Source: Comamonas sp. lk
GTDB lineage: Bacteria > Pseudomonadota > Gammaproteobacteria > Burkholderiales > Burkholderiaceae_C
Reading direction: 5' to 3'
Assembly (NCBI GenBank): GCA_945861345.1
Contig: CAMATX010000004.1
Coordinates: forward strand, 1-60,865
DNA length: 60,865 nt
Shown here one piece after another: positions 51,290-56,991 of the stretch. The position numbers and the translations under genes were made by a program. Below the pieces are notes generated by a model. It was not told the DNA's origin. It searched no databases and saw nothing but the letters and a program-made list of their open reading frames with translations. Within the stretch, counting starts at the first letter, position 1; the number at the start of each line of letters is the position of its first letter.

Positions 51290-53071
51290 ATGACCGATAT
51301 TGCCCAACGCCTCGCCACATTGCGCGCCCAAATGGCGCTGCACCACCTAGACGCCTGGGTCCTGCCCTCCTCAGACCCGCACAACTCCGAATATGTACCG
51401 GCGCGCTGGAAAGTGCGCCAGTACCTCTCTGGCTTCAGTGCCTCGGTCTCCACCATGGTGGTCATGCAGGACAAGGCCTTTGTCTGGGCCGACGGCCGCT
51501 ACTGGCTGCAAGCCGAGCGCGAGTTAGCGGGCAGCGGTATCGATATTGTTTACCTCGGCAAACCCGATGTGCCGCAGTGGAACCATTGGTTGGCAGAACA
51601 CCTGCCCAATGGTGCCCGGCTGGGCTTTTACGGCGCCACCATGATGGTCAAGGCCCTGGCCGACATAGAGCCCTTGCTGCAAAAGAAAGGCGTGAGCGTG
51701 CATACCGAGCACGACCTGGTCGACGCCGTCTGGCTGGACCGCCCCGGCTACCCGCTGGAGCCCGTCTTCGCCCATGACTTGCAGTACGCGGGTGAGACGG
51801 CGGCGAGCAAACTGGACAAAGTGCGTGCGCAGATGCGCAAAAGCGAGGCAAGCGCCCATGTGCTCAACGCCCTGGACGACATCGGGTACCTGCTCAATCT
51901 GCGTGGCACCGACGTGCCCACCTCGCCTTACTTTCATGCCTATTTGGTGGTGACCATGGACGGTGCACGCCTGTTTGCCCACCAAGAGCGCTTTGATGCT
52001 GCGCTACTTGCACAGCTAAAGGAACAAGGCGTAGCGCTGCGGCCTTACACCGAGTTTTTTGCAGACCTGGCCGGACTGGCCGGCCAAAGCGTGCTGGTCG
52101 ACCCGACGCAAAGCAACATTTTGACTTTCCAAACCCTGCGCCAGCACGGCTGCCAATTGGTCGAGCAACGCGCGCCCTCGGTAGCGCTCAAATCCATCAA
52201 GAACGAGACCGAGATTACGCACTGGAAGAACTGCTTTGTGCGCGACGGACTGGCGATGGTGCGCTTTTTGCATTGGTTTTACGCGCAGGTGGGGAGCGGA
52301 GCGCTCACCGAGCGCAGCGTTTCGGACCGAATTGACGCCGAGCGCGCCCAACTGGCCTTGTTTCGGGGGCTGAGCTTTAGCTCCATCCCTGGTTACGGGC
52401 CTAATGCGGCCATGATGCATTACGGCCTGAAAGAGGGCGTGGATACACCGGTAGCAGCACAAGGGTTTTTCCTGCTGGACTCCGGCGGTCAGTACGACGA
52501 CGGCACCACGGACATTACCCGCACGCTGGTGTGCGGGGAGACAACGGCGGAGCAAAAACGCCATTACACCCTGGTGCTCAAAGGCATGCTGCGCTTGTCG
52601 GCGGCCATTTTTATGCATGGCACGCGCGGCTTGCAGTTGGACATTCTGGCGCGTCAGGCGCTCTGGAATGAGGGTATCAACTACGCCTGCGGCACCGGCC
52701 ATGGCGTGGGCTACTTCAACAATGTGCACGAGGGACCGCACAGCATCAGCACCGCGCTGGTGGACCAGCCCATCCTTCCCGGCATGGTGGTGACCAATGA
52801 GCCTGGGGTTTACTTGCCTGGCCGCTACGGCATACGTATTGAAAATATATTGCTGTGTCAGCCGCACCAAAGTACCGAGCACGGCAGTTTTTACCGGTTC
52901 GAGACCCTGACCTTGTGCCCCATCGACACCCAGGCGGTGCTCAAAGATCTCTTGGGCGCTGAAGAAACCGCCTACCTCAACGCTTACCACGCCACCGTGC
53001 TGGAGCGACTCGGGCCCCACCTGCAGGGAGAGGAACGCAGTTTTCTAAAGCTGGCCTGCGCACCTTTGTAA
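51290..53071 (+). CDS. M24 family Xaa-Pro aminopeptidase
   Basis: A 593-residue cytoplasmic metallopeptidase (APP1-like, three-domain form) removing N-terminal residues before proline. Metal ligands are in LLDSGGQYDDGTTDITRT, GTGHGVGYF..HEGP and VTNEPGVYLPGRYGIRIEN. ATG 51290 starts MTDIAQRLATLRAQM; the frame is open for 180 codons upstream as a shadow of the EamA gene and is rejected there. It is a single gene with its promoter in the 94-base gap to EamA. After it comes a short AGGCATGCCT palindrome but no T-run. Confidence 0.93.
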   Translation: MTDIAQRLATLRAQMALHHLDAWVLPSSDPHNSEYVPARWKVRQYLSGFSASVSTMVVMQDKAFVWADGRYWLQAERELAGSGIDIVYLGKPDVPQWNHWLAEHLPNGARLGFYGATMMVKALADIEPLLQKKGVSVHTEHDLVDAVWLDRPGYPLEPVFAHDLQYAGETAASKLDKVRAQMRKSEASAHVLNALDDIGYLLNLRGTDVPTSPYFHAYLVVTMDGARLFAHQERFDAALLAQLKEQGVALRPYTEFFADLAGLAGQSVLVDPTQSNILTFQTLRQHGCQLVEQRAPSVALKSIKNETEITHWKNCFVRDGLAMVRFLHWFYAQVGSGALTERSVSDRIDAERAQLALFRGLSFSSIPGYGPNAAMMHYGLKEGVDTPVAAQGFFLLDSGGQYDDGTTDITRTLVCGETTAEQKRHYTLVLKGMLRLSAAIFMHGTRGLQLDILARQALWNEGINYACGTGHGVGYFNNVHEGPHSISTALVDQPILPGMVVTNEPGVYLPGRYGIRIENILLCQPHQSTEHGSFYRFETLTLCPIDTQAVLKDLLGAEETAYLNAYHATVLERLGPHLQGEERSFLKLACAPL

Positions 53072-53139
53072 ATACCTGTGCGCGGCCTGCTTGATAGGCA
53101 TGCCTTAGGCACAACCACATCTGTGAATTTTATTTTTAA

Positions 53140-53176
53140 TTATTTAATTATTAAATAAATCTATATTAAATATAGA
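53140..53176. promoter_or_regulatory. Two adjacent AT-rich palindromes upstream of the sensor pair
   Basis: Palindrome 1 (53140-53158) is TTATTTAAT-T-ATTAAATAA, nine-base perfect arms around one base. Palindrome 2 (53160-53176) is TCTATATT-A-AATATAGA, eight-base perfect arms around one base. They lie about 80-110 bases before the first sensor start, in the most AT-rich stretch of the window. Likely a promoter with regulator binding sites. Confidence 0.55.
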
Positions 53177-53252
53177 ATGCTTAGTCGTCTTCGTCGTGTC
53201 GCATACATCAGCGATGCTTCCGTCACTCTAAAAGCATCGGGGGTCTTGGTTC

Positions 53253-54968
53253 GTGCTCTCCTTATCCAGTCTCACTGAACGGCTATTTATCCGATTGGGC
53301 AAGGGGCCAACGCTCGACGAGCGAACATTGCTTCAGACCGCCTTATGGATCGCCATCGCAAACTCTGTGATCTATTACCTTCTGCCCATAGCAGGGTTGG
53401 ATACGAACTGGAATCTGAGGGCCATTCTGGGTTTTGGCATGTTGCTGGTACTGGCGCGCTGGGCTGGAGCTTTTTCATTCGGCACCCATGCCTTGCTCGT
53501 GCTGGAGTTTGCGCAGCTAGCGTCGCTGTCTGCCCATTCAGGCGGCATCAACTCGCCCTACATCGCTTGCATGCCCTTATTGCCGATTTCGGCATTGCTT
53601 TTATTGAATATGCGGTGGGCCTTGGTATGGCTGGCGATTATCTCAATACAAAATTATTTTCAATATTTGGCCCTTAGTCAAAATTGGATTGCGGGGGCAG
53701 TGAATCCGCAAACATTTTCAGTGAACTCCGTCCTGATCATTAAAGTGAGTTCGCTCGTTTTCTTGGTGCTAGCGCTAAGTTTGTACGACTGGACCTACCG
53801 CAGAAAGATGTACAAACTCGCTATCGACAACCAAGAATTAAATAGCATCGAGGCGGCTTTACGTCAGGTACAAATAGACATCGATGCATTGGCGACCTGT
53901 ATTGACCGCGATATTCGTGCGCCCATAGAAATCCAACGCCGCTTGAGTCCTATCCTGATTGCCGAGCTGGCTAATTCGCCGGGGCACCTTGATGCCGCAC
54001 AGCAGATGCGTGCCGAGACCAGCCAATTATGTCAATCGGTTCAAGATTTCGGCGACTTCGTAAGCCTAGAACGCGGGCATATGGACTTCGCTTTGTCCTC
54101 CTTTTATGTGCCCGATGTACTGCTGTCTGCAGTTGCAGCTATCAAGGCTGGACCACATGCCACCCGATGTCCTGTCAATGTGGATTTGGATCCGTCGATC
54201 CAGATTTGGGCACATGCTGGCCGGGACCGCCTGATGCAAATCGTCACTCGGCTGCTCCTGTATGCAGGGCAGCATGCCGATAGCGGCAGTATCCAGGTCC
54301 GCGCGCATTTTGCCGATACACGTGTGCGCGTAGAAGTTCAGTTCTCGCCACAAGATGCAAGCATTGTTTCCACACCTCGCGCCATGGTATCCAATGGCCC
54401 TCCCGAGCCCACCACCCACCTAGGCTTGGCTGTGTGCGAACGCCTGGCGGCAGCGGCAGGCGGGCAGTTTTGCTTCTACAGGCGCGGCCCAACAAAGCAC
54501 CTGCTTTGGCTAGAGTGGCCATTGAGCGTGAAGGGCACTGCTGCGTCTGAACCTGATCAAGATATCAGCTTAGCCGCCACGCCGCCAGTCCGGCGATTTT
54601 TGGTGGTGGAACATATTCTGTACACCCAATTAGAAATTCAATCCCTGCTCAAAAAGCGCTGGCCCCAATGCCATGTCGGACTCGCGGAGAGTGCAAGCAA
54701 CGCGCTATTACAAATGGAGTTTTCGCACTACGACATGGTGCTTATCAACATATCCTTGCCGCAAACCGATGGCCTGCAGGCCACGCAACAGATACGCGCA
54801 CACGCGATGCCTGGGATCCGCTCGACGCCGGTTGTGGGCCTGGCGACAAAGTCCGAGGCCAGCGAGCGCCAGCGCTGCCTGTCCAGCGGAATGCAATGGG
54901 TGCTGTTTAAGCCACTGGAGTCGGATGTATTTTTCGCCGCTATTACGGCGCACCTAGCCGGGGGTTGA
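53253..54968 (+). CDS. Degenerate hybrid sensor kinase (phosphotransfer residues missing)
   Basis: A 571-residue protein with six membrane helices (about residues 27-178), a DHp-like segment, an ATPase-like domain (about 285-425) and a receiver domain (448-565). Key residues are gone. Where SHEIRTPL is normal it has DRDIRAPI, Arg219 replacing the phospho-acceptor His. The N-box reads IVTRLLLYAGQH, both usual Asn absent (Arg333, Tyr337). The receiver has LINISLPQTDG, Asn499 replacing the phospho-Asp, though Lys553 is kept. It probably cannot carry out phosphorelay. Start is GTG 53253, the only one before residue 62. It overlaps or nearly touches the next gene. GC is lower than neighbours by eye. 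Confidence 0.85.
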   Translation: MLSLSSLTERLFIRLGKGPTLDERTLLQTALWIAIANSVIYYLLPIAGLDTNWNLRAILGFGMLLVLARWAGAFSFGTHALLVLEFAQLASLSAHSGGINSPYIACMPLLPISALLLLNMRWALVWLAIISIQNYFQYLALSQNWIAGAVNPQTFSVNSVLIIKVSSLVFLVLALSLYDWTYRRKMYKLAIDNQELNSIEAALRQVQIDIDALATCIDRDIRAPIEIQRRLSPILIAELANSPGHLDAAQQMRAETSQLCQSVQDFGDFVSLERGHMDFALSSFYVPDVLLSAVAAIKAGPHATRCPVNVDLDPSIQIWAHAGRDRLMQIVTRLLLYAGQHADSGSIQVRAHFADTRVRVEVQFSPQDASIVSTPRAMVSNGPPEPTTHLGLAVCERLAAAAGGQFCFYRRGPTKHLLWLEWPLSVKGTAASEPDQDISLAATPPVRRFLVVEHILYTQLEIQSLLKKRWPQCHVGLAESASNALLQMEFSHYDMVLINISLPQTDGLQATQQIRAHAMPGIRSTPVVGLATKSEASERQRCLSSGMQWVLFKPLESDVFFAAITAHLAGG

Positions 54969-54973
54969 AGTTC

Positions 54974-55810
54974 ATGCGTCCTGTAAATCGTCTTTTCCAT
55001 TACTGGGCCACTTGGGCTACCCCTGGCGCAGGTGCGCAGAAATTTTTCAGCTATTTGGTCCTGGTTTTGTCACTGCTAGCGACAGTGCTCGTTGCGCTCA
55101 GCGCATCCCATCCCTACGTGAGACACACCAATACGATTGCTGCACTGTTTTGGATGGCGCTGCTGCTCGCACTGCGCCATGGCATCACCATTTCTAGAGT
55201 GTGTCATGCGGGGTCGGTAAGTGCGTTGATGCAAGTGTTCCTGACGGCGTGGTTCTCCGGTGGGGTGTATGCCAGTGCATTGGTCTGGATGCCGGTGCTC
55301 GTCATTGCGACCTACTTTTTGTTAGGACGCAATGTCGCTCTGATTTGGGTGCTGATCAACCTGCTGGCCTACACCATTTTGGCATTTGCACCCCCTTGGC
55401 CTGGCGCAGCACCTCCGGTTTCAGGCGTCTCCTCAGTGCAAGGTTTTATTGCACTGGTAGACCAGTCGTTGGTGTTTATTTCTATCACCTTGGTTATGCT
55501 TTTCTACTACCAATTTGATAAGAAAGCGTTTAAAGATCTTTCAAAGCGGCGAACCCAACTTCACGCCAAAAGTGATGCGCTCAAACGGAAAGAAGCGGCC
55601 CATGCACAATTGCTCGACTACGCGCAGAAAGAGCTGCCAAGCGCTATTGAGTCCATTGCGGTGTTAAACGACATCATGGCTACAGGTCTGCAGGGCAAGC
55701 CTGGTGCCTTGTTGGTGCTGGAACACACACAGCGCGCCACCCAAGCGATGCTGCAAGCGCTCCATTCACTTCACAAGCAGCCCACAAATTGGGAACGCCC
55801 ACCCGGGTAA
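54974..55810 (+). CDS. Membrane sensor-like protein without kinase domain
   Basis: A 278-residue protein related to the membrane half of the gene before it: FSGGVYASALVWMPVL here matches HSGGINSPYIACMPLL there, followed by RNVALIWVLINLL against MRWALVWLAIISI. About six helices (to residue 180) lead into a basic coiled coil and one DHp-like helical hairpin (LDYAQKELPSAIESI) without a phospho-acceptor His. It ends there, with no ATPase or receiver domain. ATG 54974 lies five bases after the preceding stop; a TTG overlapping that stop is possible. The two are probably one operon and may form a hetero-oligomer. Function unknown. Confidence 0.75.
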   Translation: MRPVNRLFHYWATWATPGAGAQKFFSYLVLVLSLLATVLVALSASHPYVRHTNTIAALFWMALLLALRHGITISRVCHAGSVSALMQVFLTAWFSGGVYASALVWMPVLVIATYFLLGRNVALIWVLINLLAYTILAFAPPWPGAAPPVSGVSSVQGFIALVDQSLVFISITLVMLFYYQFDKKAFKDLSKRRTQLHAKSDALKRKEAAHAQLLDYAQKELPSAIESIAVLNDIMATGLQGKPGALLVLEHTQRATQAMLQALHSLHKQPTNWERPPG

Positions 55811-55827: not shown

Positions 55828-56991
55828 CTACTGCACCAAAGCTACGGCTTGATCTACAAAGCGGTAAACCTCGGCCGGTATCTTCCCATTAGGGCCTTTG
55901 TCTTTTTTGTTACGCGTCTGCCCGGTGCGCACGATGACCAGATCCTGCGAGGGCACCACAATGACGTATTGTCCTTGGTGCCCTTGCATGGAATAAAACG
56001 GATGTTTGTAGTCCCAATCCACCCACAGTGAATGGCCATAAAAGGGCTCCAGGTCGGGCTTACGGATGCGTTGCACAAATTCTTTGTCCAGTAGTTGCTT
56101 GCCGGCCCACTGGCCGTCTTGCAGCAGCAACTGACCAAATTTGGCAAAGTCCTGGGTGGTCGCGAAAATACAGCAATAAGTGCGCTCCATGCCGCCTTCG
56201 CTCGCTTCCCGGTCCAACGTATATATCGCATCGCTGCCCATACCCAGGGCGGTCCACAGGCTACGCGACAGGTGCGTGCTGATACTCAAGTCCGGCTCTT
56301 TTGCCTGCAACGCCCGTTTCAGAAACACACCCAATAGCTGCGTGCTGCCACTGCTGTACTCATACGCACTGCCCGGCTCGCGCTCGAAACCTTGGTTCAA
56401 AACCAGTGCCTGTGCATCTTTGCCGAAGTACAGATTGGTGGTGACGTTAAACGGCAGGTAATAGTTTTCTGTCCAGTCGTGGCCCGACTTCATGCTCGAG
56501 AGTTGTGAAATCGTGGCTTTGCTGGCGCGCGGATCTTTGGCATATTCGCTAATCCGCTCGGTCAGCGGCGCATCAAAACTGCTGATGTAGCCTTGCTGCA
56601 CCGCCATTTGTACTTGCAAGGTGGTGATGGTTTTGGCCATAGAGAAGGAGTTGGTACGGCTTTGGGCGTTGTAAGCGCCGAAATACGACTCATGCACCAA
56701 CGCGCCTTTTTGGGCCACCAAGAAAGCCGCGCTGCGGTACTGCTGGTGATACTCCTGCATAGCAGGATCGAGCGGCTTTTGGTTGTAGCGGGCATCGCGG
56801 GGCCAAGGCTGCTCGGTACCTTTGGCGATGGCGCGCTGGGCGAAGTTCTCCGCATCATCGATATAAGCCGTACTGTGGCCATGCAAATAGGTGCCGCTGA
56901 TGGCTTTCCAGATGTAGCCATGGCCGCTGACCTGAATGCCAGCATAAATTACAAGCACTAGAGCCGATAGGGACATATATATTTTTTTCAC
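55828..56991 (-). CDS. Beta-lactamase-family serine hydrolase (class C / esterase type)
   Basis: A 387-residue serine hydrolase of the penicillin-binding-like fold. The N-terminus is a signal or membrane anchor (MSLSALVLVIYAGIQVSG). Catalytic SxxK is Ser117-Met-Ala-Lys120, the second motif is Tyr212-Ser-Ser214 and the third is HQG in MQGHQGQYVIVV. Such proteins may be esterases, D-aminopeptidases or amide hydrolases rather than beta-lactamases. GTG 56991 is chosen because AAAGG lies eight bases ahead; an internal ATG is at codon 6. It is convergent with the sensor pair (17-base gap) and lies 101 bases downstream of dnaE2 on the same strand. Confidence 0.88.
   Translation of the reverse strand: MKKIYMSLSALVLVIYAGIQVSGHGYIWKAISGTYLHGHSTAYIDDAENFAQRAIAKGTEQPWPRDARYNQKPLDPAMQEYHQQYRSAAFLVAQKGALVHESYFGAYNAQSRTNSFSMAKTITTLQVQMAVQQGYISSFDAPLTERISEYAKDPRASKATISQLSSMKSGHDWTENYYLPFNVTTNLYFGKDAQALVLNQGFEREPGSAYEYSSGSTQLLGVFLKRALQAKEPDLSISTHLSRSLWTALGMGSDAIYTLDREASEGGMERTYCCIFATTQDFAKFGQLLLQDGQWAGKQLLDKEFVQRIRKPDLEPFYGHSLWVDWDYKHPFYSMQGHQGQYVIVVPSQDLVIVRTGQTRNKKDKGPNGKIPAEVYRFVDQAVALVQ

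Follow-up and report, generated by a model that had tools for sequence, protein, structure and literature searches.

What can a pair of membrane sensor kinases still do once the residues that carry phosphate have been replaced in both of them? This question is raised by two adjacent genes, designated A and B, in a 60,865-nucleotide stretch of DNA from Comamonas sp. lk (contig CAMATX010000004.1; hereafter the window). An earlier note, made from the letters of the DNA alone, had described them as tandem membrane sensors with the phosphotransfer residues replaced throughout and had suggested that they form a paired signalling complex independent of phosphorylation. We propose that A and B are a tandem pair of membrane hybrid kinases that has lost phosphotransfer and has been kept by selection, and that it would now act as a phosphorylation-independent sensor through its pseudo-receiver and DHp contacts; we put the probability of this reading at about one in two.

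Domains and residues of the two proteins

Gene A (53253-54968, plus strand) is an open frame encoding a 571-aa membrane pseudo-hybrid-kinase, with a 62% identical syntenic counterpart in G028, another MAG from the Comamonadaceae (the open frames of its contig C7 match CANGNS010000007.1). The domains are ordered as membrane domain, DHp-like region, CA-like region and receiver, all on the plus strand. The membrane domain (53316-53813), which carries an SGGINSP motif and is common to A and B, was recognised by alignment and by family profile matches; a profile search of the PDB sequences returned no credible relative for it, the one match (E 0.52) being taken as chance. It is followed by the DHp-like region (residues 188-270, 53814-54062), the degenerate CA-like region (residues 271-425, 54063-54527) and the pseudo-receiver (approximately residues 448-568, 54594-54956). 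In the Pfam search of A the receiver was the sole match at cut-off (PF00072, 2.7e-15); HATPase_c reached 18.6 bits against a cut-off of 26.4, and HisKA gave no match. The genome of the window holds 20 HATPase_c places, among which that of A is the only one under the cut-off. For NCBIfam, the best 25 of 68 families on A were all far under their cut-offs, and B had none.

The residue replacements named in the earlier note (Arg219, Arg333, Tyr337 and Asn499) were all found as described: a script confirmed the numbering, and an alignment with 11 canonical A proteins confirmed that they occupy the acceptor-His position, the two N-box positions and the receiver-Asp position. Arg219 (codon 53907-53909, plus strand) takes the place of the phospho-accepting His of the H-box. 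At the ATP-binding site, Arg333 and Tyr337 (codon 54261-54263) stand in the N-box and FSP replaces the DTG/DSG of the G1 box. The pseudo-receiver, still recognised by PF00072, has Asn499 for the Asp (codon 54747-54749) and Ala531 for the Thr, and retains Lys553. Trees that join A to canonical relatives, taken with the missing residues, identify it as a pseudo-histidine kinase by descent.

Gene B (54965-55810, plus strand) is an open frame of 281 aa with a 60% identical counterpart in G028. Its start may well be the ATG at 54974 (278 aa), where the G028 counterpart starts, rather than the TTG at 54965. As the earlier note had it, B shares the membrane domain of A with its SGG motif and stops after a DHp-like hairpin: it breaks off partway through the second DHp helix, has neither a CA domain (and so neither N nor G1) nor a receiver, and gives nothing at cut-off in Pfam. 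Lys222 (codon 55628-55630, plus strand) occupies the acceptor-His position, where Thr is found in G028, His in G019 and G021, and Asp in G071. The G028 protein stops at the same place, and the gap between B and the next gene, 17 bases (window) or 16 bases (G028) long, contains nothing of the missing CA domain and receiver. Both frames are open over the coordinates given here. AlphaFold2 models made from two-row alignments had pLDDT values of 37.3 (A) and 49.3 (B), too poor to lend structural support.

The two genes share the membrane domain and are adjacent on the same strand with A before B, as expected of a tandem pair. Judged by its residues, which include no acceptor His, no ATP site and no receiver Asp, the window pair alone cannot carry out a canonical phosphorelay.

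Relatives, descent and gene neighbourhood

With A as query, 143 of 149 genomes had matches at E 0.001; judged by match length and position, nearly all of those listed were ordinary kinases. Among the matches listed, the best relative was the full-length G028 protein, and the next long matches (22-38% identity) came from G021, G019, G010, G071, G062, G055, G042, G036 and G002, the last serving as outgroup; long weak matches occurred in G048 and G113. One match in G019 spans the TAA that is the stop of B3 (the B gene of its third pair) and overruns it by 30 bases. A membrane-domain profile built from 17 rows of such proteins matched at 1e-5 in 27 of 103 genomes of the genus, strongly (E under 1e-20) in 11. 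The family of tandem hybrid-kinase pairs is accordingly placed in 11 of the 103 genomes, with 16 others having weak profile matches only. The membrane domain of A alone was matched at 1e-8 in two of 399 family-sampled genomes, including the genome of the window itself.

The residue-by-residue comparison covered sixteen A proteins and sixteen B proteins. Eleven of the A proteins are canonical; five are degenerate, namely those of the window, of G028, of the third pairs of G019 and G021, and of G071. All five lack the N-box Asn, G1, and the receiver Asp and Thr. In the order window, G028, G071, G021 and G019, the acceptor-His position holds R, H, S, Q and Q, the N-box Asn position Y, C, Q, Q and Q, the receiver Asp position N, N, E, A and A, and the receiver Thr position A, A, G, C and C. 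The acceptor His is thus kept in G028 only, in a good H-box context (HQIRTP), and is gone from the other four. Conservation of the substitutions, which the earlier note had put forward for checking, therefore holds for the ATP-binding and receiver losses and fails for the loss of the acceptor His; conservation of the pairing, also put forward there, holds throughout, A and B being adjacent and same-stranded in all five degenerate cases. The B partners of the five degenerate A proteins have no receiver, and the other 11 B proteins have one. Those of the window and G028 also lack the CA domain, while B3 of G019 and of G021 keep His, N, G1 and G2 and look catalytically complete. In B3 of G071 (L065 1858-3234) the His, N and G1 are lost in place, so that it appears intermediate between a catalytic B3 and the truncated window protein. 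Pfam searches agree: the receiver was found and HisKA was absent in each degenerate A scanned (window, G021 and G071), HisKA and HATPase_c were found in B3 of G019, and all three domains were found in both G552 proteins.

The presence of the same pair in G028, with the same CA and receiver losses and the same end of B, indicates that the window pair is more than a chance product. The CA losses, the receiver Asp to Asn change and the truncated B are common to both genomes and, on the simplest view, predate their split, which places the later divergence in the dead state. The degenerate A proteins form one clade in trees of the whole length (100/99), of DHp-CA (98/95) and of the receiver (100/98); the membrane-only tree neither shows nor rejects this clade (p-AU 0.47), and the corresponding B clade is weak (91/88 in an earlier B tree, 53/83 in a later one). 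A single origin is likely from these trees, though not proven, long branches being present. If the clade does have one origin, the order of events suggested is that the ATP-binding and receiver residues were lost before the His. Compared informally, the trees of A and of B have the same broad outline, as expected if the pairs were inherited together. The trees omit a B2 fragment of G071 truncated at a contig end (L065, 313 aa) and an unpaired kinase of G062 (L067 2794-4644); G552 enters only in the later ones, and a G336 match (L075) was viewed as open frames only.

The residues that persist in the relatives bear on a different explanation, in which phosphate still flows in trans and A serves as acceptor or phosphatase-like modulator in the phosphorelay of another kinase. 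It draws on the HQIRTP of G028 A, on Arg222-x-Pro224, which is retained in all five degenerate A proteins, and on B3 of G019, with its HisKA and HATPase_c matches, and B3 of G021, with the same residues. Hpt domains, moreover, were found in nine of the ten genomes tested, including the window's, and G028 has them too; the idea that an Hpt gene was lost along with phosphotransfer is rejected on the same grounds. The window pair itself, however, offers no canonical acceptor, with Arg219 and Asn499 in A, Lys222 in B and no receiver in B, and we consider flow in trans unlikely here. Phosphorylation-independence, as claimed in the earlier note, is thus well supported by the residues for the window pair; it does not extend to all relatives, since the B partners in G019 and G021 retain His, N, G1 and G2, and phosphorylation need not be absent throughout the degenerate clade.

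The pair is followed by a convergent gene for a beta-lactamase-fold hydrolase (55828-56991, minus strand; PF00144), which by synteny serves as a marker of the locus. This hydrolase adjoins the pair in the window, G028, G010, G019, G021, G071 and G552 (80% over 369 aa in G552, where the dnaE2 end lies further on, 80% over 168 aa). One canonical pair stands beside it in G010 and in G552. G021 and G019 have arrays of three A+B pairs in a row (L062 5963-16553 and L063 4184-14738), of which two are canonical and the one on the hydrolase side is degenerate; in G071 the degenerate pair adjoins a B fragment that is canonical in its visible part.

Such arrays raise the possibility that a dead pair dampens the canonical sister pairs of its own array by forming mixed dimers. 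The two arrays and the canonical-looking fragment in G071 fit this, and contact between sensor kinases is known from RetS-GacS and ChrS-HrrS (PMC5992135 and PMC9491836, each cited in part). In the window genome and G028, on the other hand, only the pair is present: the membrane profile found no other family member at 1e-5 in G028 or in the window genome, which is 94% complete, a gap that could hide one. Dampening of sisters is therefore rather improbable as an account of the window pair, whose partner, as far as the profile can tell, probably lies outside its own family; a canonical kinase on contig C5 would be one candidate. This protein (G000 contig C5, L071 7659-9455) is a canonical hybrid kinase, unlinked to the pair, whose membrane domain is distantly related; its gene has oligopeptide ABC transporter genes on one side and a release factor 3 gene on the other, and its counterpart in G028 is 88% identical.

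Constraint on the degenerate pairs

The reading proposed here, a dead pair kept by selection, has to be weighed against slow decay, in which an ordinary hybrid kinase pair is on its way out and its frames are open by luck. Several observations could be taken that way. The pair is 60-62% identical at the protein level between the window and G028, against 87-97% for the six linked flanking proteins; B has lost two domains, and B3 of G071 is heavily altered. Between the window and G028, A has a dN of 0.273 and a dS of 1.47, giving a dN/dS of 0.186 (bootstrap 0.13-0.24), and B has a dN/dS of 0.166 (bootstrap 0.09-0.23). The six flanking genes have values of 0.02-0.09; those of the pair exceed them by a factor of about 1.8 to 8.5, so that the constraint on the pair is weaker than on its neighbours. 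Canonical relatives, which the earlier note had counted as a sign of decay, do exist: the pairs that adjoin the same hydrolase in G010 and G552 are canonical.

Against decay, the dN/dS measured after the shared losses remains far below 1 in every domain of A (membrane domain 0.17, DHp 0.21, CA 0.22, linker and receiver together, residues 426-571, 0.137). Pairwise dS is near saturation; substituting a flank-like value of about 0.65 would raise the dN/dS of A to about 0.42, which is also below 1. The third pairs of G019 and G021, compared with each other, give 0.26 (A3) and 0.24 (B3). The frames taken for the five degenerate A and five B proteins are free of internal stops, whereas every neutral simulation acquired a stop (500 runs for each gene at each of two distances, 0.3 and 0.75 substitutions per site). 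Both frames thus appear to have been kept by selection, as far as such comparisons of sequence can tell, in line with the earlier note's view that they are not products of simple decay, a reading we regard as quite unlikely.

The pattern of conservation within A points in the same direction. The pseudo-receiver, with 74% identity to G028, is the best conserved of the four domains; 92 of its 124 aligned positions are identical, against 48 of 83 for the DHp-like region. In all 10 pairwise comparisons of degenerate A proteins the receiver shows higher identity than the DHp region, and in none of the 55 comparisons of canonical ones; the pairs compared have ancestry in common and are not independent. 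In Fisher tests of single comparisons, p was 0.016 and 0.0009 for degenerate proteins and, in the opposite direction, 0.001, 0.07 and 0.02 for canonical ones. Over the 10 degenerate comparisons the best conserved domain was the receiver in eight and the membrane domain in two, and the CA region was the worst in nine. At five receiver positions (E461, G476, F490, W549 and F552) all five degenerate A proteins have the same residue, one unseen among the 11 canonical proteins; elsewhere in A there are three such positions in total. These receiver-specific invariants, although found post hoc, speak against decay and are positive evidence from the alignment that the pseudo-receiver may have taken on a new role.

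Proposed mode of action and comparison with known systems

Because the membrane domain and the pseudo-receiver are the parts best kept, the likeliest role of the selected pair is sensing coupled to protein docking. We propose that A and B would form a complex by way of their DHp-like helices and the membrane domains they have in common, and that a signal read by the membrane domains would alter the helices so as to expose or hide the pseudo-receiver. When exposed, the pseudo-receiver might dock on the DHp of an active kinase, on an Hpt protein or on a response regulator, and docking would inhibit or tune that partner without phosphate transfer. A complex of A and B would fit the adjacency of the genes, the outline agreement of their trees and their joint loss of residues. 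Above the cut-off, the window genome has 19 further HATPase_c places, some of which may not be kinases.

The nearest comparison is with the canonical pairs of the genus (G010, G552, pairs 1 and 2 of G019 and G021, G062, G055, G042, G036 and G071b), which have the same membrane domain, the order A then B and the hybrid layout. Unlike the window pair, they keep the whole set of His, N, G1 and receiver Asp, Thr and Lys, and their order of domain conservation is reversed. Beyond the genus, RcsC and RcsD are two membrane kinase-like proteins, one of them catalytically dead, that cooperate; RcsD has an Hpt domain, whereas B has nothing beyond its DHp-like hairpin. In DivL, a Tyr stands in place of the His. 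DivL of Caulobacter resembles a histidine kinase but has no kinase activity; it binds a response regulator and senses through PAS domains (PMC4211667, cited in part); the window pair has instead a polytopic membrane domain, together with a pseudo-receiver and a paired gene. RetS changes another sensor kinase, GacS, by direct contact, in part through phosphate chemistry (PMC5992135), and the pseudokinase ChrS acts on HrrS by contact with a broken CA domain (PMC9491836); in the portions of these papers used here, the ChrS case is a laboratory frameshift, unlike the present loss, which is common to several species.

In the part of the PF00072 pseudo-receiver review of Bourret et al. (2025, PMC12632262) drawn on here, Ala is a common replacement at the Thr position and Glu the common one at the Asp position, the His is missing in 0.9% of HisKA domains and the Asp in 2.0% of receivers, and the on-off switching of pseudo-receivers is described as a mystery. 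The receiver of A resembles these in being recognised as a receiver with Asp and Thr gone and Ala at the Thr position, and differs in having Asn rather than Glu at the Asp position. It also differs from the cases described in that part in ending a protein with a dead kinase part and in being accompanied by a truncated partner gene. Pseudo-kinases and pseudo-receivers are thus already known, and the window pair is a variant of them; among the best-ranked literature, covered as titles and the starts of abstracts and only partly for subscription papers, no description was found of this pair or of paired dead hybrid kinases of this layout. The value of the family lies in a natural series within one genus, several members of which are at the same locus: canonical pairs, a dead A with an active-looking B (G019 and G021), and fully dead pairs (the window, and G028 apart from its His). 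From this series one can see which domain is retained by selection after catalysis has been lost.

The pair also coincides with a block of raised divergence. Nucleotide identity between the window and G028 is mostly 0.82-0.90 in the flanks and 0.58-0.77 over the pair (window 53000-55800), with flank dips to 0.73-0.81 in an intergenic stretch and part of dnaE2. For G021 against G019 the usual range is 0.85-0.99, with a drop to 0.51-0.83 that begins inside B2 and ends inside B3 (L062 12600-16100, against L063), after which identity recovers; dS is 0.70-1.02 for the third pair, 0.13-0.35 for pairs 1 and 2 and 0.16-0.24 for two flanking genes. The edges of this block inside genes suggest replacement by a diverged allele through recombination, which would account for a sharply bounded block of older synonymous divergence; the alternative is the sorting of old paralogues. 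Weak codon bias is unlikely as the sole cause of the high dS, the hydrolase having a GC3 of 0.64-0.66 with a dS of 0.70 and the pair a GC3 of 0.59-0.61 with a dS of 1.5-1.6. A polymorphic sensor of the kind seen in quorum-sensing pherotypes is not favoured, the membrane domain not being the most variable part of A. As a tentative extension of the proposed reading, the pair may be a two-protein membrane receptor built wholly of dead kinase parts, with the repurposed pseudo-receiver as its sole output, carried on old, horizontally exchanged Comamonadaceae alleles and aimed at a kinase or regulator that does not belong to its family.

The surroundings of the hydrolase vary as well. In G552 a 1421-codon open frame (L091 11232-15497) lies between the hydrolase and the dnaE2 end, where the corresponding genes of the window are about 100 bases apart. 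Beyond the hydrolase, other genomes encode large, poorly conserved proteins (38-46% between genomes; L064 12558-17973, L062 18231-19901 and L063 1-2641), and that of G010 carries passenger-associated autotransporter repeats.
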